64,000 nucleotides of DNA, taken from assembly GCA_017444825.1 (NCBI GenBank), contig JAFSVU010000056.1:1-64000 (forward strand), in the 5' to 3' direction. The position numbers and the translations under genes are program-made. This document shows, piece after piece, positions 575-27,876 of this stretch (position 1 is the stretch's first letter; each line of letters begins with the position of its first letter). This stretch comes from Clostridia bacterium (GTDB lineage: Bacteria > Bacillota > Clostridia > UBA1212). Under the pieces are notes generated by a model that did no database searches, was not told the DNA's origin, and saw only the letters and a list, made by a program, of their open reading frames with translations.

Positions 575-1558
575 ATGAATCGAATTATAATAAAACCGAG
601 TATGGCGCTTGACACGATTTGTTTTCTTCAGCAGCGTTTGCTGAACAAGAAAGAGTGGATGAAAGCCGACCAAATAAAAGAAATAGAATATATTAATGGT
701 CTTTTGCCAACAGGCTTTGACAACGAGTTCCTTAGCATGTCGAGCTTGTGCCTGATCATCAGTTCATTTTATGATGACGATCTGGAAGCATTGACTCTCG
801 ATGATTTCATTCGCGATTTTCAGTCGCCCAAAGATATTAGTCGAATTGTAAAAGGGCGTATTAAAAATGAATTTACGGCATCTTATCTGTTTCCCATGTT
901 GGATTGGCTGAATCAGGGCTACGCCAATGTCTATGTTGATAAGCTGAAAACGCTGAAAAACATTGGTTTTGAAACGATATATAACGAACGTATTCTGCCG
1001 TTGGTTCAGAGAGAAGGTACGAGATTGAAAAAAGAAATTGAGGGCACAAACCCGGAAGAACTGTTCCGGAATATATCGATCTTCAAAAATGCGCCGATCG
1101 TTGACCACGCTGATATTTACGTTTCATTTTTCAGTTATCCAACTGCGTTTAAACTGTATAACGGATCGTTTTTGACCTGTTTTACCAATGGATCGGTAGA
1201 TTATTATCCGCTCATTGCCCACGAACTGATGCACGGTTTTGCGAGCGATGAAGCAATACGTTTGTACAAAGAACACGTCGAAAGTGACGAGCGCCTGAGG
1301 GAATGTCACCGTGCCTTAATTGAGTATCAGCGTGAGGGTGATGAGGAAGAATTCGTTATAGCTGCGGAGTGTTATTTGTGCTATCTTTCCGGATATTATC
1401 CGATCGATAAGTTGAGATCGACCGTCAAAGGATATTACGGCGGATACTGCCCTACCGCCGTAGCAATTTTCGAACAGTTGATAAAAGAACACGCAATTCC
1501 GGCAGATTACAACGGATGGTTGATTCAGAATTTCTTTGGCAAACAACCACATGGATAA
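575..1558 (+). CDS. HELMH zinc-metallopeptidase-like protein
   Basis: 327 residues from ATG 575, which has a GTGAGG Shine-Dalgarno 4-5 bases upstream; an in-frame start at 518 is possible but has no such site. Residues 216-221 read HELMHG, a gluzincin-type HExxH zinc site (H216, E217, H220). A run of acidic residues and AAECYLCYL about 40 residues downstream could supply the third ligand (gluzincin ExxxD/E pattern). No signal peptide is visible, so it is probably cytoplasmic. I do not recognise the family. Natural substrate unknown. Confidence 0.6.
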   Translation: MNRIIIKPSMALDTICFLQQRLLNKKEWMKADQIKEIEYINGLLPTGFDNEFLSMSSLCLIISSFYDDDLEALTLDDFIRDFQSPKDISRIVKGRIKNEFTASYLFPMLDWLNQGYANVYVDKLKTLKNIGFETIYNERILPLVQREGTRLKKEIEGTNPEELFRNISIFKNAPIVDHADIYVSFFSYPTAFKLYNGSFLTCFTNGSVDYYPLIAHELMHGFASDEAIRLYKEHVESDERLRECHRALIEYQREGDEEEFVIAAECYLCYLSGYYPIDKLRSTVKGYYGGYCPTAVAIFEQLIKEHAIPADYNGWLIQNFFGKQPHG

Positions 1559-1580
1559 ACCGGGCTTGATGGAGGAAGGA

Positions 1581-1922
1581 ATGGTTAACAATAAAAAACA
1601 ACCGGCAGCATTCCCGTGGATAGAATTAATACCGTTCGGACTGTACGCAATTGCTGCACTGTATGTGACGACACAAACCAATGTTTTTTACCAAAAAGGT
1701 TTACAATTTATTCAAAACATTGGGGTCTGCGCTGTTCCATTGGCGTTAATATCCGGGGTAGCCTTGTCTGTTATCGGGTTTGTTATGCTTCATAGATTGC
1801 ATGGATGGAGAAAAACAACGACTTTAGTATTGAGCATATTTCATATTGCGGTCTTTGCGGTTGCAGCATGCGGAATGGCGGTATTTGTCTTTTTGGCTTT
1901 AACCGGTAAAATTTCCAATTGA
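1581..1922 (+). CDS. Small three-helix membrane protein
   Basis: 113 residues. ATG 1581 is chosen over an upstream ATG that overlaps the preceding gene because GGAGGAAGGA lies immediately before it. Three hydrophobic segments (about residues 13-31, 45-70 and 80-108) separated by a short basic loop (LHRLHGWRK) indicate an integral membrane protein. No catalytic motif is visible and I do not recognise a family. It starts 22 bases after the stop of the zincin-like gene, so the two are probably cotranscribed. Confidence 0.5.
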   Translation: MVNNKKQPAAFPWIELIPFGLYAIAALYVTTQTNVFYQKGLQFIQNIGVCAVPLALISGVALSVIGFVMLHRLHGWRKTTTLVLSIFHIAVFAVAACGMAVFVFLALTGKISN

Positions 1923-1985
1923 AACAGGATGATTCCGGTATATCAAAAACGGTCTCTGAGAGCCGGGATTTGTGAGGGTGTAATA

Positions 1986-2312
1986 ATGAGTAACTTTGGA
2001 ATCGATGATATGTTGGATATGCAAAGGTCTTTGCAGGAAAAGTAGAAAGATATCTGGGAACCGGTCTGCCCGGACAGGGGGAAAGACCAGCTGCTGTGGA
2101 TGATAGGGGAAATAGGCGAGGTCATTGATATAGTGAAAAAGCACGGCGGGGAGAAGGCGTGCCGCGATGCGAAATTACGCAAGGATCTCGTCGAAGAGAT
2201 GGTCGACGTTCTGATGTATTACAATGATGTGCTTCTTTGTTACGGGATATCGGAAGCGGAGTTAAAACAGGCCTACGTCAACAAGTTTGAGAAAAATATG
2301 AAACGCTGGTAA
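1986..2312 (+). pseudogene. MazG-like nucleotide pyrophosphohydrolase, interrupted by TAG
   Basis: Translating from ATG 1986 gives a MazG-like protein of about 108 residues (MGEIGEV-type and EEMVDVLMYY helices, which in MazG/all-alpha NTPases carry the Mg-binding acidic residues). Codon 20 (2043-2045) is TAG. Homologues I recall have Tyr here (QEKYKD), so a single TAT/TAC to TAG change explains it. The remainder is intact to the stop at 2312. A downstream restart at ATG 2100 would give a 70-residue product that keeps the catalytic helices. Recent nonsense mutation, suppression or restart are all possible. Confidence 0.7.
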
Positions 2313-2333
2313 TCCCGGCTTGCGGAGGCGAAA

Positions 2334-3041
2334 ATGAGAATTGATTGCGTGTGGGAACATAACGGCAATGACACCCTTCTTTATGTGAACAATTTCCCGG
2401 GTGCCTTTACGCGAGGTGCGTCAATGGAAGAGGCAATGCTGAAAATGCCTGAAGAAATAAGGCGCTTCCGGCTCTGGATGGGTGAAACTTCGCCTGATGA
2501 TTACGAGATTGAGATCGTTCAGGAAAAGGAATCGGATCTGCAAATACAAGATGCCGACAGTGATGTTTTGTTTTCAACGGAGGAAGGCCCATTGACGGTT
2601 GAAGAATACAGGCGTCTTAAATCGTTGGCGCTTAGATCCGCAAATGATTTTTACACGCTTTACAGCTCGTTCCCGGATAAGCACAGGAGCGCGCTTCCAT
2701 ATCGCAAGACGTTTTACGGCCCTGTTCCACGTACTGCGGAAGAAATGTATCAACACACGAAAAATGTAAACGAATACTATTTTTCCGAAATCGGCGTAAG
2801 CTCGGATAACGAGGGAACAATTGTTTCCTGCAGAGCAAGGGGCTTCAAAACACTTGAAACCAATGCGGACTACCTGTCACTTGATACCGTAACCGGCAGC
2901 TACGGTGAGCAATGGTCGGTGCGAAAAGTTTTGAGACGTTTCATCTGGCATGACAGAATACACGCCAAAGCAATGTACAGGATGGGCATACAGACGTTCG
3001 GAGCGGACAGCATTCCCGATGTTTTCGGGTTTTGTCGATAA
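2334..3041 (+). CDS. HicB-like / DinB-like two-domain protein
   Basis: 235 residues, ATG 2334 preceded by CGGAGGCG. Residues 1-75 resemble the HicB-type small alpha/beta fold (short strands, FTRGASMEEAMLKMPEEI). Residues about 85-235 resemble the four-helix DinB/YfiT superfamily, ending with VLRRFIWHDRIHAKAMYR, where His residues normally bind a metal. DinB-like proteins are usually thiol-dependent transferases or stress proteins; the function of this combination is unknown. It lies 21 bases after the interrupted MazG-like gene on the same strand. Confidence 0.6.
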   Translation: MRIDCVWEHNGNDTLLYVNNFPGAFTRGASMEEAMLKMPEEIRRFRLWMGETSPDDYEIEIVQEKESDLQIQDADSDVLFSTEEGPLTVEEYRRLKSLALRSANDFYTLYSSFPDKHRSALPYRKTFYGPVPRTAEEMYQHTKNVNEYYFSEIGVSSDNEGTIVSCRARGFKTLETNADYLSLDTVTGSYGEQWSVRKVLRRFIWHDRIHAKAMYRMGIQTFGADSIPDVFGFCR

Positions 3042-3098
3042 AATCCGGTAAGGTGAAATATAAACGATCCCTCAAGACCGGGATCTGTGAGGTGAACC

Positions 3099-3650
3099 AT
3101 GAAGTTTGTTTTGATAATAGGCGATGCTGCTGTAGGAAAAATGACAGTTGGTCAGGAACTGATGAAGATAACAGATCTGCGTCTTTTTCATAATCACATG
3201 ACAATTGAGCCGGTGATAGAGATCTTTGGCAAGTATGACGGCAAGACGATCTCGGAGCTGCGTGAGGTCATATTCCGAAACTTTGCGGCTTCCGGCAATT
3301 ACGGAATGATTTTTACGTATATGTGGGCGTTTGACGTTGAGGCGGACTGGGATTATATCGAACACGTGAAAGAAATATTCAGCCCGTATGACACTGAGTT
3401 TTACTATGTGGAACTGACAGCGCCGCAGGAGATAAGACTTAAAAGGAACGCAACGGAAAACAGACTTCGTCATAAAGCATCCAAAAGGGATATACCGCTT
3501 TCAAATCAGCGGCTGATAAATGACGACAAGAAATACAGATGCGTCAGCTATGAAGGAGAGATCACGTTTGACAATTATCTCAGGATCGACAATTCGGATA
3601 AAAAACCCGAAGAGGTTGCCGAGATCATAAAAAAAGCGTTTGACCTGTAA
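3099..3650 (+). CDS. P-loop small-molecule kinase-like protein
   Basis: 183 residues. Walker A-like GDAAVGKM at residues 8-15 follows a hydrophobic first strand (KFVLIIG), as in shikimate-kinase/AAA_33-type kinases. A lid-like basic stretch (RLKRNATENRLRHKASKR) appears near residues 107-126 and a DD segment further on. The usual GKS/T ends in Met rather than Ser/Thr (GKM then T), which is slightly unusual. Substrate unknown. ATG 3099 is preceded by GTGAGGTG within a short leader that resembles the one at 1951-1985. Confidence 0.6.
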   Translation: MKFVLIIGDAAVGKMTVGQELMKITDLRLFHNHMTIEPVIEIFGKYDGKTISELREVIFRNFAASGNYGMIFTYMWAFDVEADWDYIEHVKEIFSPYDTEFYYVELTAPQEIRLKRNATENRLRHKASKRDIPLSNQRLINDDKKYRCVSYEGEITFDNYLRIDNSDKKPEEVAEIIKKAFDL

Positions 3651-3651
3651 C

Positions 3652-3768
3652 TGTCAGCTCGCTCAGAAAGAGATTTCCACATACGCCAATTTCAATCTGA
3701 CTCTGATCGACTGGGACGTGATCAACGCTCTTAACATGCTCTATAAGACGGGGGTATTCAAGGGATAG
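3652..3768 (+). pseudogene. Possible 3' remnant of an unrecognised gene
   Basis: Between the P-loop kinase and galM the frame ending in TAG at 3766-3768 reads as plausible protein (about 38 residues, with TYANFNLTLIDWDVINALNM), has no start codon or ribosome-binding site upstream, and stops one base before the galM ATG. This looks like the tail of a deleted gene that once preceded galM. The family is not recognised. It could equally be a chance open frame. Confidence 0.3.
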
Positions 3769-3769
3769 T

Positions 3770-4825
3770 ATGGCCGATATTTCTTCTTACAAATTCGGAA
3801 AGACAAAAGACGGCAGGATCGTTACTGCATTTGAAATGCGAAACGCCTGCGGTATGTTCGTGCGGATACTTGATTACGGTTGCACGATCCAAAGTGTTAC
3901 CGTCCCTGACCGTAACGGCGCCGCAACAGACGTGGCTCTCGGTTACGACGACATTCTGTCTTACGAGAACGGTACCTGCTACTACGGCGCTATAGTGGGA
4001 AGGTACGCAAACCGTATCGGTGATGCCCGCTTCATGCTTGACGGAAAAGAATATCTGCTGGAAAAGACCAGTGAGAATAAAATGCACCATCTTCACGGTG
4101 TGTATGCGAAAAGACATTTTGATGGACGCGAGGAAAACGGGTGCCTGATCCTAAGGTACACAAGTCCCGACGGCGAGGAAGGGTTCCCGGGGGATCTCAG
4201 CGTAGAGGTCAGGTATACACTTGGTGACGACAATGCCCTCACGATCGAGTATGCGGCAACGACGGACAAGCCGACAGTCGTGAACCTTACAAATCACAGC
4301 TATTTTAACCTGAACGGTCAGGACGGGTCGACGGTGCTTGATCACAGGGTGCGGCTTAATTGTAGCTTCTTTACCGAATATACCGAGACTTTTGCCCAGA
4401 CGGGAAGGATCATTCCTGTGGAAGGGACGCCTCTTGACTTCAGGAAAGAAGAAACCATTGGCGCCAGATGGAACGACAGTTACCCTCAGTTCAGAGCGTG
4501 TACGGGCTACGACCACAATATGGTTTTAGACGGAAAACCGGGAGAGCTTAAACTTATAGGAACTGCGAAGAGCGAAAAAACGGGTATAACTCTTGAAGCG
4601 TTTACGACGGAGCCTGCGATACAGTTCTATTCGGCCAATTTCATTCATTACGACGAGGTCAAACAGGGGAAGAACGGCGTAAAATACCCTAAAAACGGCG
4701 GGTTCTGTTTTGAGGCCCAGCATTATCCGGACTCTACGACCCATTCCCATTTTCCGAATGTAGTTTTAAGACCCGGAGAGACATACCGGCAGAAAACCGT
4801 GTACAGGTTTGGAACCGGGAAGTGA
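3770..4825 (+). CDS. galM: Aldose 1-epimerase (mutarotase)
   Basis: 351 residues, the usual GalM length. It interconverts alpha and beta anomers of aldoses in the cytoplasm. The family signature TNHSYFNLNG (catalytic His) lies near residues 171-180, a second conserved segment CTGYDHN near 244-250, and the general-base Glu in GGFCFEAQHYPDS near 312-324. The start is preceded only by a weak AAGGGA, and TAG of an upstream gene remnant sits directly before it. It converges on the CYTH gene with a 17-base gap. Confidence 0.9.
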   Translation: MADISSYKFGKTKDGRIVTAFEMRNACGMFVRILDYGCTIQSVTVPDRNGAATDVALGYDDILSYENGTCYYGAIVGRYANRIGDARFMLDGKEYLLEKTSENKMHHLHGVYAKRHFDGREENGCLILRYTSPDGEEGFPGDLSVEVRYTLGDDNALTIEYAATTDKPTVVNLTNHSYFNLNGQDGSTVLDHRVRLNCSFFTEYTETFAQTGRIIPVEGTPLDFRKEETIGARWNDSYPQFRACTGYDHNMVLDGKPGELKLIGTAKSEKTGITLEAFTTEPAIQFYSANFIHYDEVKQGKNGVKYPKNGGFCFEAQHYPDSTTHSHFPNVVLRPGETYRQKTVYRFGTGK

Positions 4826-13526: not shown

Positions 13527-13553
13527 CTTGAGTAAGTTATATTACTGCATCAA

Positions 13554-14714
13554 TTACTTGATATCAGCCTGGTAGTCAACAGTTGTCTTCTCGCTTACTG
13601 TGGGATGATCGGCAATGCTAGCGGAAACTGTGATCTCTTTATCGAAGATCTTGGCAACCAGCTCTTTGTACTGCTCAACTGTGAATGTCTTCATAGCCCA
13701 GCCTTCTGTCGGAAGCTGTACGTAGTTGAGAGCGACATTGTCCTTGGAAACCAGTCCCAGAGTTTCGATCTTGGACTCGAACTTGCCGTTAAGGATGAGG
13801 TTGGAAAGTGAAGTCTGAACTGTTGCGTAGAGGCCTTTCATAGCGGACGTAACTGTCATGCCTTCGCCGTACTGTCCGTCGATACTGGGTCTCTGGTCAA
13901 CGTCAACACCGATGACTTTAGCGTTGACTTTCTTGGCAGCCTCTGCAGCGCTGGTGAAGATACCGCCGCCGCATGCAAATACGACCTCTGTTCCGGCGCT
14001 GTACCAGGTATCCATTTTAGCTGTGATATCGCTGTCGCCGAAGAACTGTCCGCCGTAAACGTAGTTGATCGAGATGGAAACGTCAGCTTCTTTAGCAGCC
14101 AGATCTGCGCCCTGAACGAATCCGTAGCCGTATCTTACAACTGCGGGAACAGACATACCGCCAAGGAATCCGAGCTTTGTATAGCCTTCTTTAACAGCTG
14201 CGTAACCTGCCAGGAATCCTGCGATCTCCTCCTGGTAAACAGCGCAGTAAACGTTTGAAGGAAGCTTGTAGCTGGACCATGCTTCGTTGTCGGGATTGTA
14301 ATCATAGTCCGGGAAGTGTGCGTCCAGCAGATCGCCGAGAGCTACGTCAAGTGCGATGAAGTAAACATCGGGATACTTGGAAGCTGTAGCCTCGATAGCG
14401 GGAGCAAAAGCGTAGCCCGGCATAACGATCACGTTATAACCTGCGGCAATAGCCTCTTTGATGGAAGCGACACGGTCGTCATCGGAGTTTGTAGCAGGTT
14501 TGTAGTATTTGAAATCTACTTTGTTAGCTTCGCACCAGTCTTTGCAGCCTTCATACGTTGCCTGGTTGAATGACTGGTCTGTGATGTCGCCGTAGTCGGT
14601 TACCATAGCGACCTTGTAACCTTCTTCTTTGTCCCCGGTGGGCTGTGTTGTGCACGCAGCGAGAGCAAAGAGGGTGACAAGTGCTAAAATGATTGCCAAA
14701 ATACGAGTTTTCAT
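13554..14714 (-). CDS. BMP-family nucleoside-binding lipoprotein
   Basis: 386 residues. Signal peptide with lipobox LAAC (Cys21), then a Thr/Gly linker and the BMP/PnrA fold: MVTDYGDITDQSFNQATYEG near residue 38, FIALD near 125, KLGFLGGMSVPAVVRYGYGF near 180, and VIGVDVDQRP near 265. It captures nucleosides outside the membrane for the ABC importer encoded by the three following genes. It has its own promoter (14777-14804), and the downstream hairpin suggests it is the most highly expressed gene of the set. Confidence 0.92.
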   Translation of the reverse strand: MKTRILAIILALVTLFALAACTTQPTGDKEEGYKVAMVTDYGDITDQSFNQATYEGCKDWCEANKVDFKYYKPATNSDDDRVASIKEAIAAGYNVIVMPGYAFAPAIEATASKYPDVYFIALDVALGDLLDAHFPDYDYNPDNEAWSSYKLPSNVYCAVYQEEIAGFLAGYAAVKEGYTKLGFLGGMSVPAVVRYGYGFVQGADLAAKEADVSISINYVYGGQFFGDSDITAKMDTWYSAGTEVVFACGGGIFTSAAEAAKKVNAKVIGVDVDQRPSIDGQYGEGMTVTSAMKGLYATVQTSLSNLILNGKFESKIETLGLVSKDNVALNYVQLPTEGWAMKTFTVEQYKELVAKIFDKEITVSASIADHPTVSEKTTVDYQADIK

Positions 14715-14776
14715 ATGGGTCCCCCTTTAAAAAATGTTCAAAAATGTGAGTCAGTAAATGAATCCTTATCGCATTC

Positions 14777-14804
14777 ATTATATCACATTAAACATTTTTA
14801 GCAA
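14777..14804 (-). promoter_or_regulatory. Promoter of the nucleoside importer operon
   Basis: Minus strand TTGCTA, 16-base spacer, TATAAT, about 60 bases upstream of the ATG at 14714. The intervening leader shows no riboswitch that I recognise. Confidence 0.6.
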
Positions 14805-15140
14805 TCATTTATTTTTGCTTTTACCCGCTTTAAAACCTCCTGCGGCGACCTTCTGCGGCGACCCGCCGCCCGGTGCTTCCCCGTGCCGTGCTTCGGCTGC
14901 TTTCCGGGCGGGAAAGCGCCGCTTGGCCTCGCAAAGCCGCTTTCGGGCAAAAAAATTTTCATTTTTTTAAAAAAGTGACAATTTGTCTCTTTTTTTTGGT
15001 TTACGGCCATGTTAAAATCATATTGGAGGAAAGAAAGGCGTCCGGCGTTGGTTATTAACCGGACTGAACGGCGGCGTCGCGTGAAGCGGTTTAAACACGC
15101 GGCCGCCGGCCGCCCGGCGGCATTGAGAAAGGTGACAAAA

Positions 15141-21882: not shown

Positions 21883-21926
21883 CATAGAACCAGGGGGCGA
21901 TCTTGCAACCGCCCCCTGGTTCTATG
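21883..21926 (-). terminator. Perfect 17-bp inverted repeat at the end of the recombinase gene
   Basis: CATAGAACCAGGGGGCG and its exact complement enclose a 10-base loop; the right arm contains the recombinase stop codon. On the minus strand it is followed only by TTTAA. Could be a terminator or a structural mark of the element end. Confidence 0.6.
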
Positions 21927-23424
21927 GTGGAGCATCCGCAACCATAAACGAAACCGGTGTAGGATTTCCGTCTACGCCTTCCAGAGCGCTTTCAATATCA
22001 TCCAGCGGGATGTCATCAATGGTAATTACCCGGTTGCCTGCGTTCAAGATCAGCGTATAGTGGTCGTCATAAATGAAAATGGCGTTGACAAAAATGTTTA
22101 TCAAAGCCCTGCGCTTGTTGACGTCATCCTTTGGCAGTTTTCTGATATAGTCAAGAAAAGCGTATATCTCCGGCTCCGTCAGGACAAATTGCTTATTTTC
22201 CGCGAGAGCAAGTTTTTCTTCCAACTCCGCTCGCTCCGCCTTTCGCTTATTGATTCGCTCCGTAAGCATCTCGACGGACTGACCTTTTTCAATGCCTAGC
22301 CACAGGTTTTCAATCGCGTTATCGCTATCCTTGATAGCGGTTTTAAGTTTTTTAATTGCCGTCGTATCCGAATTGCTTTCAAACTCTGCGGCTACGTTCT
22401 TCGCTATAAAACGAATATTGTCCTCGGTAAGAAGCGAAAGACACTCAGCAATAACGTGATCCTCAATATAGGTCTTCTTTACGATCCGCTTGCCGCACTG
22501 CTTCTTCTTTGCCTTTTTACAAGCGTAATAATGATAAGCGACGCCCATTTTACCGGTACCGCCGTATCCGATCATCATTTCTTTGCAATACCCGCAAAAC
22601 AACTTTGTAGTCAAGAGGTATTCTTCTTTGCCTCTGGTACGAGCAGGTGCGGCTTTGTTCTTATCTAATATAGCTTGCACTCTGTTAAAAAGATCGTCAT
22701 CTATGATTCTCGGCATTCCGCCCGGCGTTTCGATGTCCTTGTAAAGGTATGTACCGATATATCGTTTGTTTCGGAGCATACGGTGAATACTGTTCTTGTT
22801 GAACTCCCGACCAAGCGAAGTCTTTATGCCGCGTCGGTTCATTTCACGAATAATATCCGCTGTTGTTTCGCCGGATGCGTAACGCTCGAATACTTCACGA
22901 ACAATGGCGGCTTCCTCGGGATCAACGCGAAATGTGCGATCGGGATTAACCTTAAAACCGAGTCCTGGATTACTGCCGTTGGAAAGACATTTCTCGGCGT
23001 TCAGATTCATGCCGCGATTGATTTTTTGGGAGAGTTCAACGGAATAGTATTCCGCCATACTCTCCAAAACGCCCTCGATCAGAATCCCCGAGGCGTCGTC
23101 GGTGATGTTTTCCTTTGCGGAGAGCACGCGGACGCCGTTCTTTTTCAGCTTTGCTTTGTTGATAGCGCTGTCATAGCGGTTTCGGGCAAAACGGTCAAGC
23201 TGATATACCAAAACGCCGTCAAACGTCTTTTTGTCGCTGTCGGAAATCATACGCTGGAAATCGGATCGGTTGTCGGTTGTTCCGGACTGCGCCCTGTCAA
23301 TATACTCACCCACAACAACGTGATTGTTTGCGGCTGCGTATTCGTAACATACTTTCAATTGTCCCTCGATAGATTGCTCCGTTTGACTGTGGCTTGAAAA
23401 TCTTGCGTATATGACAAGTCTCAT
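21922..23424 (-). CDS. Large serine recombinase
   Basis: 500 residues. Resolvase domain at residues 1-150 with the nucleophile in YARFSS (Ser10 or 11), Arg residues in QLDRFARN, and ESMAEYYS. The recombinase domain follows (GLGFKVNPDRTFRVDPEEA, FNKNSIHRMLRNKRYIGTY), then a zinc ribbon (LFCGYCKEMM ... YYACKKAKKKQCGK) and a coiled coil near 350-420. This is the integrase type of Tn4451/phage-like elements, which recombines short attachment sites. Its ATG follows the stop of the RHH gene by one base. Probably mobilised this stretch; att sites not identified. Confidence 0.93.
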   Translation of the reverse strand: MRLVIYARFSSHSQTEQSIEGQLKVCYEYAAANNHVVVGEYIDRAQSGTTDNRSDFQRMISDSDKKTFDGVLVYQLDRFARNRYDSAINKAKLKKNGVRVLSAKENITDDASGILIEGVLESMAEYYSVELSQKINRGMNLNAEKCLSNGSNPGLGFKVNPDRTFRVDPEEAAIVREVFERYASGETTADIIREMNRRGIKTSLGREFNKNSIHRMLRNKRYIGTYLYKDIETPGGMPRIIDDDLFNRVQAILDKNKAAPARTRGKEEYLLTTKLFCGYCKEMMIGYGGTGKMGVAYHYYACKKAKKKQCGKRIVKKTYIEDHVIAECLSLLTEDNIRFIAKNVAAEFESNSDTTAIKKLKTAIKDSDNAIENLWLGIEKGQSVEMLTERINKRKAERAELEEKLALAENKQFVLTEPEIYAFLDYIRKLPKDDVNKRRALINIFVNAIFIYDDHYTLILNAGNRVITIDDIPLDDIESALEGVDGNPTPVSFMVADAPP

Positions 23425-23425
23425 T

Positions 23426-23680
23426 TCAACCCTCCGAGTTGTTCTCCGAAGGGGCCGGCTGTCGTGCGATCATTTCGAGAATCTGACCTGACCTGCGGTG
23501 TATTTCCTCGGCATATACCTTTAATTTATCCACCGGTATCGGTCGTTTCTGGAGATACAAATCGCTTTTGATCAATCCAATCACATAGTCCTTCAACGTG
23601 ATCCCTTCCGCCGCGAGTTTGACTTTCAAGGTTCTGTGCAGTTCCTCGTCGACACGAAACGCCATCGTTCTTTCTTCCAT
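23426..23680 (-). CDS. Ribbon-helix-helix protein
   Basis: 84 residues from ATG 23680 (GGAGG eight bases upstream). N-terminal beta strand and two helices (MAFRVDEELHRTLKVKLAAEGITLKDYVIGLI) match the Arc/MetJ ribbon-helix-helix fold; the C-terminal part is helical. It is probably a DNA-binding accessory protein or repressor for the recombinase, with which it forms a two-gene operon (one-base gap). Strong promoter just upstream. Confidence 0.75.
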   Translation of the reverse strand: MEERTMAFRVDEELHRTLKVKLAAEGITLKDYVIGLIKSDLYLQKRPIPVDKLKVYAEEIHRRSGQILEMIARQPAPSENNSEG

Positions 23681-23711
23681 AAAATCAACCTCCATACAAA
23701 CTTACAAATAC

Positions 23712-23944: not shown

Positions 23945-23972
23945 TTGCTTTTCTAGAAAAAAGGAGTATAAT
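23945..23972 (+). promoter_or_regulatory. Promoter of the HD-phosphoribosyltransferase operon
   Basis: TTGCTT, 16-base spacer, TATAAT, about 126 bases before the ATG at 24098, leaving a long 5' leader. Confidence 0.65.
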
Positions 23973-24044
23973 GATACTTGTATTTTGTCGTGCTATTATT
24001 GTACTGTGTGCAATATGGAGTGTAGAATGTTCGGTAATATAGTA

Positions 24045-24085
24045 CCTTAGACAGTAGGTGGCTTTAAACACAAATCCTACCGAGG
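24045..24085 (+). ncRNA. L10-leader-like RNA element
   Basis: In the 5' leader, TTAGACAGTAGGTGG and ATCCTACCGAGGG flank a 15-base interior; GTAGG pairs with CCTAC. The conserved words AGACAGTAGGTG and CCTACCGAGG match my memory of the Firmicutes ribosomal protein L10 leader, which normally precedes rplJ-rplL. Here the genes downstream are not ribosomal. Recognition is from memory only. Confidence 0.5.
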
Positions 24086-24097
24086 GAAGGAGATATT

Positions 24098-24505
24098 ATG
24101 TTATTCAATTCGGAAATTTGCTTTATAGATGAGTTCATTGCAAATTTAAAACTTAAGGGAATAGAAGAAATACCTTTTGATAATGCGGAATTCTACAATG
24201 GCGTTGGTAAGATGAGCAGATATTTTCAGGCAAATAGAAATCTTTTGGGCGAGGTTTCAAATGAGATTTCTTTGTTGTTTATAAAAAATCCTTTCGAGGA
24301 TATATACAAGCGCTTTAGAGATGCAATATCATTATCGAATGGCGGTTACTTGTCCTTCGTCAATCCTGATTATATTACCGGAGTTTTGGAGCTTTCCATT
24401 GATGATGCTAATTACATTATATTGAAAAATAGGTCGGGTGTACCTGCTGATTTTATTAAAAATTGTGCAGAACGTTTTTGCTCTGGCGCCAATATTGAAG
24501 CGTGA
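24098..24505 (+). CDS. Small unknown partner protein
   Basis: 135 residues; GAAGGAG before ATG 24098. Mixed alpha/beta, no signal peptide, no cysteines in a metal pattern, no membrane helix. It begins with a helical part (DEFIANLKLKGIEEI) and contains FIKNPFEDIYKRFRDAISLS and a C-terminal segment with strands (ILKNRSGVPADFIKN). I do not recognise a family. The next gene starts 16 bases downstream, so the pair is cotranscribed and probably works together: a small regulator, inhibitor or sensor beside a large effector is a reasonable guess only. Confidence 0.6.
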   Translation: MLFNSEICFIDEFIANLKLKGIEEIPFDNAEFYNGVGKMSRYFQANRNLLGEVSNEISLLFIKNPFEDIYKRFRDAISLSNGGYLSFVNPDYITGVLELSIDDANYIILKNRSGVPADFIKNCAERFCSGANIEA

Positions 24506-24521: not shown

Positions 24522-27269
24522 ATGAAGATCTCTTCGATATTGCAGTCAGATGAATGCAAGCCCTTATTCGATGAAGTTCAATCCTTCGTAAATGATTCCT
24601 TGTCCGAGTACAATAGAACTCTAGAAAATGAAGAGTTCCGTGTTTTGGGCAAGGATATTTTTGATTTCGTATGGGGAACTGTGAACTTTAGTGCAGCGGA
24701 AATGTGTGTGTTAGATTCACCACTTCTTCAAAGGCTTCGGCATATAAGACAGTTAGGATTGGCTAGCACTGTATATTGTAATGCAGATAGCTCTAGATTT
24801 AGCCATACAATTGGTGTTACAGAAGTTGCGGGAAGAATGGCTCATATAATTTCTTCAAAAGTTTCTGATGTCTTAAATAACGATGAATTTGCAGAATTAA
24901 AAGAGCACTTTGATCCGGAAGAAATTGTCCGTTTAGCCGCAATATTTCATGATACAGGTCATATGTTCTACAGTCATGTCAGTGAAGTGTTTTTTTCTTA
25001 TGATCAAGCTTTTCCGCGATATAGTGAAATCACGAAAGCAAGGTCATTCTTTTGCGAAAAAACATCAGCTGAGGTTTCTTTGCATGAGATGATCAGCGTA
25101 ATGATTGTAAACTCAGATTCGACTTTAAAACTACTTAAGATCATGTCGCGTCATATGAATCGTTCTCGCTTAACAGATGAGAATCACTACAAGCAGTTAG
25201 CAGAGTATATATCATGCCTAATAATCGGCGTACCGACCGACAAATACATACTACCCTACTCAACTATTATAAACAGTGCAATTGATGCCGATAAATTGGA
25301 TTATTTGTCGAGAGATTCACAGTGTACAAAAGTGCCTATTGCGGTTGATATCGCACGAATAATCCAAAAACTCGATGTTGTGAATATCGAGGACATTGTT
25401 ATTACAGATATTTGGGATGATGCAACTTCGAAAACTGTTCCTTACAAAATAATGGCGATAAAAAACTCTGCAAAAAGTGTTTTCTTTCAGCTTTCTAATG
25501 CTCGTACAAGTATGTTTGAAAGTGTTTACTATCACCACAAAGTTCTGACATCGGAAACAATGTTCAGAGAAGCGCTTAGGAAGATTTATTCTCTTAAGAA
25601 AGACAAGCATATATCTTTTTCTGATATTCTAAAATTGACTGATGATTCATTTAACAAGAATTGGGACTATGCTCTTCTTGACGAGGATGAAAGACATCAA
25701 AAAAGTGTGGTATCTGAAATATCTAGAATCCTTAATTCCTTAAGAAATAGGGATCTGCTTAAACGGGTTGCTGCTTTTTCTCAAAGTATTATTATTGCAT
25801 CCAAGGCGAAAAAAGAAGATTTTCTTAACACAGTGATCCAGAATCCTTTTTCTGTCGATAGTATTTCTTTCCGCACACGACTTGTAGAAGAATACAAAAA
25901 GGTGTGTAAGTTGCTATCCTTGACTCCTAAAGTTGAACCGACTTTTATGTTTATTTATTCAAAATACACACCTATGGATTCAGTTGCCGTTGAAAATGGC
26001 GATGGCTATTGTGTATGGTCATCTAAATTGATGAAACAAGATACTATTGAGGCCGGCAAACGCTCGAGGCAAGAACAGTTCTATTTAGTTACTGATTGTA
26101 AAGATAGATTGCCAGTGTACCTTGCGCTAGAAAAGGTACTGCCTGAATTTGGTATTGAGCGACTATCTCCTGATTCTGCTATTTGTTCAAAACAATCGCA
26201 AACATATTTAAACAAAAAGCGTTTTGAATTGTTGGAACTTGATTATTATAAAGACAATCTTTATATAATTCAGGATGATATTCTTTTTAATAAGGTTTAC
26301 GACAAGGTGCTTTTTGAAGAAGTTTTGCAAAAGTATCAAAGTTTTATGGGGGTTAATAATTGTAGAATTACTAAAGATAGTTTGCTTAGTTATTTACGAC
26401 AGTTCTTACAATGCGAATTAACATTTAGCGATTTAAAAACATTAATGAATGGTGTTTTAAAAGTGCTAAACAGCGCGTATTACCTTGATAGAGATTCATT
26501 TTCAATGCATTTTTCAAATCTCATCAATGAGAAAATAAGTAAAATCACTTGTAAGAGTGTTCATATGATTTTGTTAGGGGGGGTGTTTGATAGTGCACAA
26601 CACTTGGCATATTTTATTAATGACATTCCCAAGAACGAAATAATCTCATTTGATGCCTCTCTTGACGTAGCACTAAAGACAGTAAAAGAAGATGATTGCA
26701 TTTGTTTTTTCGATGACGGCGCCTATTCTGGTAAACAAGTTATTTCAATTTTTCAAGAATTGATGGGAATTTCTGTCGAAAGTCGTACCACAAATGAACA
26801 TCATGTTGATGAGTTGCCACCGGAACAGAAAGAACGCATAAAACAAATCAAAATTGTACTTGGATATTTGTGCTTTAATAAGAATAGTGAAAACTACATA
26901 AAAACAGAGTTATCTAAGCTGGGTATTTCGAATGTGGAAATATACTTCGAAAAGGATTTATCAAAAAAGATTTTTGATAGCAGTGATATATTTTCAAATA
27001 ATACTCAGCAAAAAGAGCTTGTAATGAATGTGTTTCAACAAATCGGGAAAACCATTCTTGGGACTTCAAAAAGGAATAAGGACGGAAGTTATAAAGAAAG
27101 GTGGAACGAAGAACGAGTTAATAATTCTGCCCTTGGATACAATGACGCTCAACAGGCTATTGTATTTTACAATAACATTCCTACATATTCGTTAACAGCA
27201 TTGTGGGCCAATGGATCCATTAACGGAATTGATTGGCGTGGTCTTTTTCAACGAACTATTAAGGATTAA
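24522..27269 (+). CDS. HD (SAMHD1/dGTPase-like) plus phosphoribosyltransferase-like fusion
   Basis: 915 residues from ATG 24522 (GGAGGGAAGGGA upstream). Residues about 60-270 match the HD phosphohydrolase pattern of dGTPase/SAMHD1: SPLLQRLRHIRQLG, H95 in RFSHTIG, H143-D144 in FHDTGHMFYSH, and D257 in IDADKLDYLSRD, so all four metal ligands are present. A long helical middle region follows. Residues about 725-745 read CICFFDDGAYSGKQVI, like the PRPP-binding loop (DDxxxSG/TGxT) of phosphoribosyltransferases, within an alpha/beta C-terminal domain. Likely acts on nucleotides. AT-rich, next to a serine recombinase; candidate antiphage protein. Confidence 0.8.
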   Translation: MKISSILQSDECKPLFDEVQSFVNDSLSEYNRTLENEEFRVLGKDIFDFVWGTVNFSAAEMCVLDSPLLQRLRHIRQLGLASTVYCNADSSRFSHTIGVTEVAGRMAHIISSKVSDVLNNDEFAELKEHFDPEEIVRLAAIFHDTGHMFYSHVSEVFFSYDQAFPRYSEITKARSFFCEKTSAEVSLHEMISVMIVNSDSTLKLLKIMSRHMNRSRLTDENHYKQLAEYISCLIIGVPTDKYILPYSTIINSAIDADKLDYLSRDSQCTKVPIAVDIARIIQKLDVVNIEDIVITDIWDDATSKTVPYKIMAIKNSAKSVFFQLSNARTSMFESVYYHHKVLTSETMFREALRKIYSLKKDKHISFSDILKLTDDSFNKNWDYALLDEDERHQKSVVSEISRILNSLRNRDLLKRVAAFSQSIIIASKAKKEDFLNTVIQNPFSVDSISFRTRLVEEYKKVCKLLSLTPKVEPTFMFIYSKYTPMDSVAVENGDGYCVWSSKLMKQDTIEAGKRSRQEQFYLVTDCKDRLPVYLALEKVLPEFGIERLSPDSAICSKQSQTYLNKKRFELLELDYYKDNLYIIQDDILFNKVYDKVLFEEVLQKYQSFMGVNNCRITKDSLLSYLRQFLQCELTFSDLKTLMNGVLKVLNSAYYLDRDSFSMHFSNLINEKISKITCKSVHMILLGGVFDSAQHLAYFINDIPKNEIISFDASLDVALKTVKEDDCICFFDDGAYSGKQVISIFQELMGISVESRTTNEHHVDELPPEQKERIKQIKIVLGYLCFNKNSENYIKTELSKLGISNVEIYFEKDLSKKIFDSSDIFSNNTQQKELVMNVFQQIGKTILGTSKRNKDGSYKERWNEERVNNSALGYNDAQQAIVFYNNIPTYSLTALWANGSINGIDWRGLFQRTIKD

Positions 27270-27420: not shown

Positions 27421-27492
27421 TAATTGACACTACAGGATCACTTTCACGGCAAAGCCGCCTTTGAAAAAGTAGGTGTTCGTGTAATGTCCGTT

Positions 27493-27876
27493 TGGTGGAG
27501 ATGAGGAGAGTCGAACTCCTGTCCGAAACCGACTCAAGCCTGACTTCTACGAGTGTAGCCGTAAGTTTGGATTTCCCCGAACTCTGCGCCAAACGGCGGG
27601 CTCAGTGCCCGGGTAGCTTCATATTATCCGCCTGCGTTCAAAGCTTTGCGCAGGCAGTTGGCGGCGTTGACCCTTAAACCCGCAGGGCTCAAATTGCTGA
27701 CACCGCTTGCCGGAGGCTTGAGGAACCTACGGGGCGGCGCAAGCTGCGATCAGGCAGCCTGAAGTGCAAAATTATCGTTTGCGTTTAATTTTAGATCCCC
27801 GTTTTTTAAAGAGGCCAACGGGACCCTCTACCCGCTATCCGACCATTGACGACCCCGTCGAAACCGGAACATCCCC
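27493..27876 (-). ncRNA. ssrA: Transfer-messenger RNA (tmRNA)
   Basis: One-piece tmRNA on the minus strand, about 384 bases. The 5' end GGGGATGTTCCGGTTTCGACGG and the 3' end GTTCGACTCTCCTCATCTCC followed by genome-encoded ACCA form the tRNA-like domain, with the T-arm GTTCGAC visible. The tag reading frame runs from GCA 27782 to TGA 27750 and encodes ANDNFALQAA, so with the charged alanine the tag is AANDNFALQAA. It rescues stalled ribosomes together with SmpB. The ending ALQAA differs from the usual ALAA. Promoter at 27890-27918. Confidence 0.95.

Follow-up and report, generated by a model that had tools for sequence, protein, structure and literature searches.

A conserved, relocated L10-type leader upstream of a mobile and probably defensive operon in Clostridia

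An RNA element of the L10 leader type is found upstream of a non-ribosomal operon in a 64-kb stretch of DNA from a Clostridia bacterium (hereafter the window). The element is a conserved, relocated L10 kink-turn that occurs in a new arrangement adjacent to a Shine-Dalgarno sequence, and the mobile operon that it precedes is probably defensive. Ribosomal-protein leaders are seen as serving the autogenous control of ribosomal operons, and if the operon leader binds its presumed ligand, it would place a very different set of genes under the control of L10.

The leader element and its resemblance to rplJ leaders

An earlier note, based on the letters of the window, had claimed an L10-leader-like element before a non-ribosomal operon and proposed a covariance-model search as a check. 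The match is confirmed: the L10_leader family of Rfam (RF00557) scores 41.0 bits at this location, with a small ORF and an HD-PRTase gene downstream. When 501 nucleotides were compared with all 4227 families by cmscan, the match extended over 24027-24136 of the forward strand with an E-value of 2.7e-5. Over the whole 64-kb window its E-value is 0.0035, which is significant, and only tmRNA scores higher. The score is just below the curated gathering cut-off of 44 bits, and a gathering-level Rfam scan of the window alone missed the leader. The RF00557 model has 138 positions, including a downstream terminator part that the window leader does not possess. In the host genome, the window site outscores the genuine leader of the host rplJ gene (28.6 bits), which precedes that gene on another contig.

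The features of the locus are as follows.

21922..23424, reverse strand: large serine recombinase of the presumed mobile element (Pfam Resolvase, Recombinase, Zn_ribbon_recom)
23971..23999, forward strand: promoter-like sequence with an extended -10 (TG-N-TATTAT), ~45 nucleotides upstream of the kink-turn; from a consensus scan only, and by itself no evidence of function
24042..24093, forward strand: conserved leader core, comprising an L10-type kink-turn hairpin and, fused with it, the Shine-Dalgarno sequence (identity with relatives, alignment A4)
24044..24087, forward strand: L10 kink-turn module, ACC-UUA-GACAGUAGG ... CCUACCGAGG (32.5 bits with model R1, described below; 41.0 bits with RF00557)
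24087..24092, forward strand: Shine-Dalgarno sequence AAGGAG, one base past the GAGG of the kink-turn and 5 nucleotides before the ATG (read directly)
24098..24505, forward strand: small first gene, 135 amino acids, without a Pfam, NCBIfam or PADLOC match; AlphaFold model winged-helix-like (pLDDT 90)
24522..27269, forward strand: fusion of a SAMHD1-like HD domain with a PRTase-CE domain, 915 amino acids (Pfam)
27493..27876, reverse strand: tmRNA gene (Rfam tmRNA, 174.5 bits), whose 3' end at 27493 is the presumed insertion edge

The two half-sites of the element, AGACAGTAGGTGG and CCTACCGAGGG, can be read directly at 24049-24086, and the kink-turn core GACAG-YAGG / CCURCC-GAGG is evident both by eye and with model R1. 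The UAA of the window copy is shifted off the usual linker position by an insertion (UUUAAACACAAAU), and the apical stems are weakest in the window leader and in one of its relatives (L005). Thermodynamic folding alone indicates ordinary stability (z -1.2 to 0.7), as expected because the L10 site is flexible without protein in B. subtilis (PMC4538822).

L10 leaders are otherwise associated with rplJ. Matches with E-values of at most 0.001 occur in 339 of 398 genomes of the phylum, and the best 30 of these are all upstream of rplJ. Only two of the 398 genomes carry a second match; one precedes another rplJ gene, and the other is weak and sits among unrelated coding genes. In this sample, all L10 leaders whose context was checked lie before rplJ, except for the operon leaders and this one weak match. 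In a survey of RNA regulons, ribosomal leaders were grouped with genes of protein synthesis (PMC3766115). The fused kink-turn and Shine-Dalgarno (GAAGG) pattern was found in one of the 397 genomes of the family to which the relative L004 belongs, which is L004 itself. Viral contigs yielded no relative of the encoded protein and no match to three exact motif patterns, and phage and plasmid records contained only distant HD proteins. We found no paper in the open-access full-text literature that places an L10 leader before a defence or mobile gene, a result that falls short of proving novelty.

Conservation of the leader with a mobile operon

Three further operons with the same two genes (L003, L004 and L005) were found in contigs titled uncultured Eubacterium and Lachnospiraceae. 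Their HD-PRTase proteins are 56-59% identical and their small proteins 47-54% identical to those of the window. Conservation of the leader among homologous operons had been set beforehand as a test, and in all three close relatives RF00557 detects an L10 leader immediately before the small gene, with scores of 59.7 (L003) and 51.7 bits (L004), both above the cut-off of 44, and 32.8 bits (L005), below it. Each of the three host genomes carries a normal rplJ leader as well, and the operon copy is therefore an extra one.

To avoid circularity, we built a core covariance model (R1) from 31 rplJ leaders only (alignment A3), drawn from phylum genomes as well as two of the hosts of L003-L005. A search with R1 of 40 loci, ~221 kb in all, including the window and the loci of HD homologues, returned exactly the four operon leaders, with scores of 40.4, 33.6, 32.5 and 28.5 bits and E-values of 2e-10 to 2e-6. 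The next match was noise, at 9.8 bits. The window leader accounts for the score of 32.5 bits, with an E-value of about 8e-8 in 221 kb, although the calibration is rough.

In the leader core (49-54 nucleotides), the window shares 83% identity with L003, 85% with L004 and 65% with L005, whereas the 100 nucleotides upstream of the leader are 36-39% identical and fourfold-degenerate codon positions 25-39% identical between the window and these relatives. From this difference, with neutral sites saturated, we conclude that selection maintains the element and that it moves together with the operon. The GAAGG behind the kink-turn is conserved in all four operons. UAA occupies its canonical linker position in L003, L004 and L005. 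One G-A position of the kink-turn is changed in each of L004 and L005.

The neighbours of the operon differ among the four loci, and consist of a serine recombinase in the window and in L005, a tyrosine integrase in L003 and a group II intron in L004. Collinearity of the window with five congeneric genomes is limited at the tmRNA 3' end, where blastn alignments of relatives stop at 27491-27493. The search for an empty site thus defined the right edge only; on the left, relatives show no collinear flank. In one of the relatives (L093), the same slot beside tmRNA holds a SEFIR/TIR gene (13535-14956), and a Schlafen AlbA_2 gene lies close by. These genes suggest that the position is a tmRNA-adjacent hotspot for conflict genes.

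Several other elements were observed around these operons. Between the recombinase and the operon of the window lies an 89-amino acid gene (23426-23695, reverse strand) that by eye resembles a ribbon-helix-helix regulator and has no Pfam match; a promoter that matches the sigma-70 consensus perfectly (12/12) is positioned for this gene at 23740-23712 (reverse strand). Examples of the pemK RNA motif occur upstream of PemK-like toxin genes in L003 (999-1100) and L005 (1357-1457), a few kb from the homologous operons. In L005, a DUF3800-XI RNA (4055-4103) and an apparently truncated gene lie directly upstream of the promoter region of the operon.

More-diverged relatives of the operon are also present. 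L080 contains a two-gene operon (640-3860, reverse strand) with 37% identity, and still more distant pairs of a small ORF and an HD gene occur in L066 and L081. The two-gene module therefore looks like a wider uncharacterised family. No L10 leader was found at the L080 operon or at distant HD loci. Since L080 retains both genes without the leader, gain, or loss, of the leader took place within the operon family.

Proteins of the operon

The 915-amino acid protein contains Pfam domains HD (residues 92-264), HD_assoc_2 (327-419) and PRTase-CE (645-911), the last of these above the Pfam cut-off. Its profile matches SAMHD1 and other HD hydrolases, and the H...HD...D metal-binding motif (H95, H143-D144 and D257) is invariant in the four homologues. 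The only PADLOC match is partial and weak (PRTase_III-A, E 5.6e-9). An AlphaFold model of this protein was set aside as too poor (pLDDT 44.8). For the small protein, a PDB search with the predicted model retrieved winged helices, MukE/JetB-like subunits among them. With Z no higher than 5.7, these matches are weak and do no more than hint at such a fold.

Anti-phage effectors are known both among PRTases and among HD dNTPases (PMC9122126, PMC12265719). From the types of its domains and its mobile context only, the operon probably encodes a system of anti-phage defence or conflict that targets nucleotides. With HD dNTPase defence (dGTPase defence, the CloA protein of Clover) and with SAMHD1 it shares the HD hydrolase motif and profile similarity to SAMHD1, a likeness known here from sequence, but its HD domain is fused to PRTase-CE and its partner protein is small and winged-helix-like. 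CloA is toxic if unrestrained (PMC12265719). The CloB partner in Clover is a nucleotidyltransferase, whereas the partner here has a winged-helix-like model and no family match; no nucleotidyltransferase was seen, although the absent match does not exclude one. The PRTase-CE domain and the weak PRTase_III-A match are reminiscent of PRTase effectors such as PRTase-CE, the retron III-A PRTase and DprA-PRTase, the last of which confers phage resistance (PMC9122126). Unlike these, the operon encodes neither a reverse transcriptase nor DprA, and its PRTase is fused to an HD domain.

Leader architecture and proposed control

The operon leaders resemble the Firmicutes rplJL leader (RF00557) in the kink-turn core sequence, the apical hairpin and, in most copies, the UAA linker, and they score with models built from rplJ leaders. 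They differ in preceding a mobile operon of a small ORF and an HD-PRTase gene instead of rplJ-rplL and in not being autogenous. Their architecture is also distinct. The distance from the kink-turn to the start codon is 12, 19, 14 and 12 nucleotides in the four operons, compared with 74-203 nucleotides (mean 117) in 32 rplJ leaders, and the Shine-Dalgarno sequence is fused to the motif, with no antiterminator or terminator. A run of at least five T residues occurs between kink-turn and start codon in 24 of the 32 rplJ leaders and in none of the four operon leaders. UAA is in its usual linker position in all 32 rplJ leaders. When formation of the kink-turn stem is forced in silico, the predicted accessibility of the Shine-Dalgarno sequence falls in the window, L003 and L004, partly through CCUU:AAGG pairing; no reduction was predicted for L005.

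In rplJ leaders, binding of L10(L12)4 requires the kink-turn and UAA, and rplJL of B. subtilis is controlled by transcription attenuation (PMC4538822). In E. coli, repression of rplJL resembles the present case in that control is expected at translation initiation. There, a long distance separates the L10 site from the ribosome-binding site, and L10 is thought unlikely to compete directly (PMC10931766). The operon site, in contrast, abuts the Shine-Dalgarno sequence, and this geometry points to a third mode, in which L10 would compete directly with the initiating ribosome.

We regard control of the operon by L10 as the best explanation, with a probability of roughly 0.6. The operon leader would contain a captured kink-turn, of the type found in rplJ leaders, that binds L10(L12)4. 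Because the presumed binding site is immediately upstream of the Shine-Dalgarno sequence, free L10(L12)4 most likely blocks access of the ribosome, so that repression would be translational, by direct competition and aided by CCUU:AAGG pairing, and would not involve transcription termination. The binding of L10, the level and direction of control and the role in defence are inferred. During fast growth, nascent 23S rRNA might take up L10 and the operon would be translated, and an excess of L10 would hold the operon down. Since L10 is made by every bacterium, such a control site could be portable and function in any new host, and it might tie a costly effector to ribosome supply. More speculatively, free L10(L12)4 could be the sensor input of a mobile defence system, acting as a host-independent trans-repressor of a toxic nucleotide-depleting effector. 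A drop in free L10, caused by phage takeover or altered ribosome assembly, would then release the effector. We consider this extension possible and put it forward tentatively.

Proteins of several families recognise kink-turns, and the operon leaders might instead bind another factor, either a generic kink-turn protein of the L7Ae/YbxF family or the small protein of the operon, in which case the leader would be autoregulatory and merely resemble an L10 site. The gene order, with the small protein ahead of the effector, is one often seen for autoregulators, the small protein possibly has a winged-helix fold, and the shifted UAA of the window copy is also compatible with a different ligand. However, the resemblance to rplJ leaders exceeds the kink-turn, as AGACAG, AGGUG, UAA and CCUACCGAGG are all found by the rplJ-only model R1, and the diverged L080 operon has the small protein without such a leader. 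No L10 or L7Ae structure is among the best PDB matches listed for the small-protein model, which is weak evidence. We judge binding of another factor to be rather improbable.

The earlier note had raised the alternative that the element was inserted beside a fragment of a ribosomal leader. This idea is ruled out by the R1 matches and core identity, because the leader is kept with the operon in four genomic contexts. A related proposal is that the element is a relic, namely an rplJ-leader fragment that by chance became promoter-proximal to the operon and has no regulatory role now. The sub-threshold score and shifted UAA of the window copy, and the weak apical stems there and in L005, are what a relic might exhibit, but the core is 65-85% identical while fourfold sites are 25-39% identical, and the element occupies the same position against the Shine-Dalgarno sequence in four of four operons despite differing genomic contexts, making this origin unlikely. 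Transcription attenuation would be the natural expectation from the closest characterised Firmicutes relative, the B. subtilis rplJL leader (PMC4538822). Nevertheless, no terminator-like site was found between promoter and start codon in the window, and the interval of 12-19 nucleotides between kink-turn and ATG lacks the U-run that is common in rplJ leaders, so attenuation is very improbable.

If control of the operon by L10 is correct, a universal ribosomal protein has been co-opted as a portable trans-regulator of a probable anti-phage weapon. Ribosome biogenesis would then be linked to immunity, and the supply of ribosomes may control the deployment of a defence weapon.
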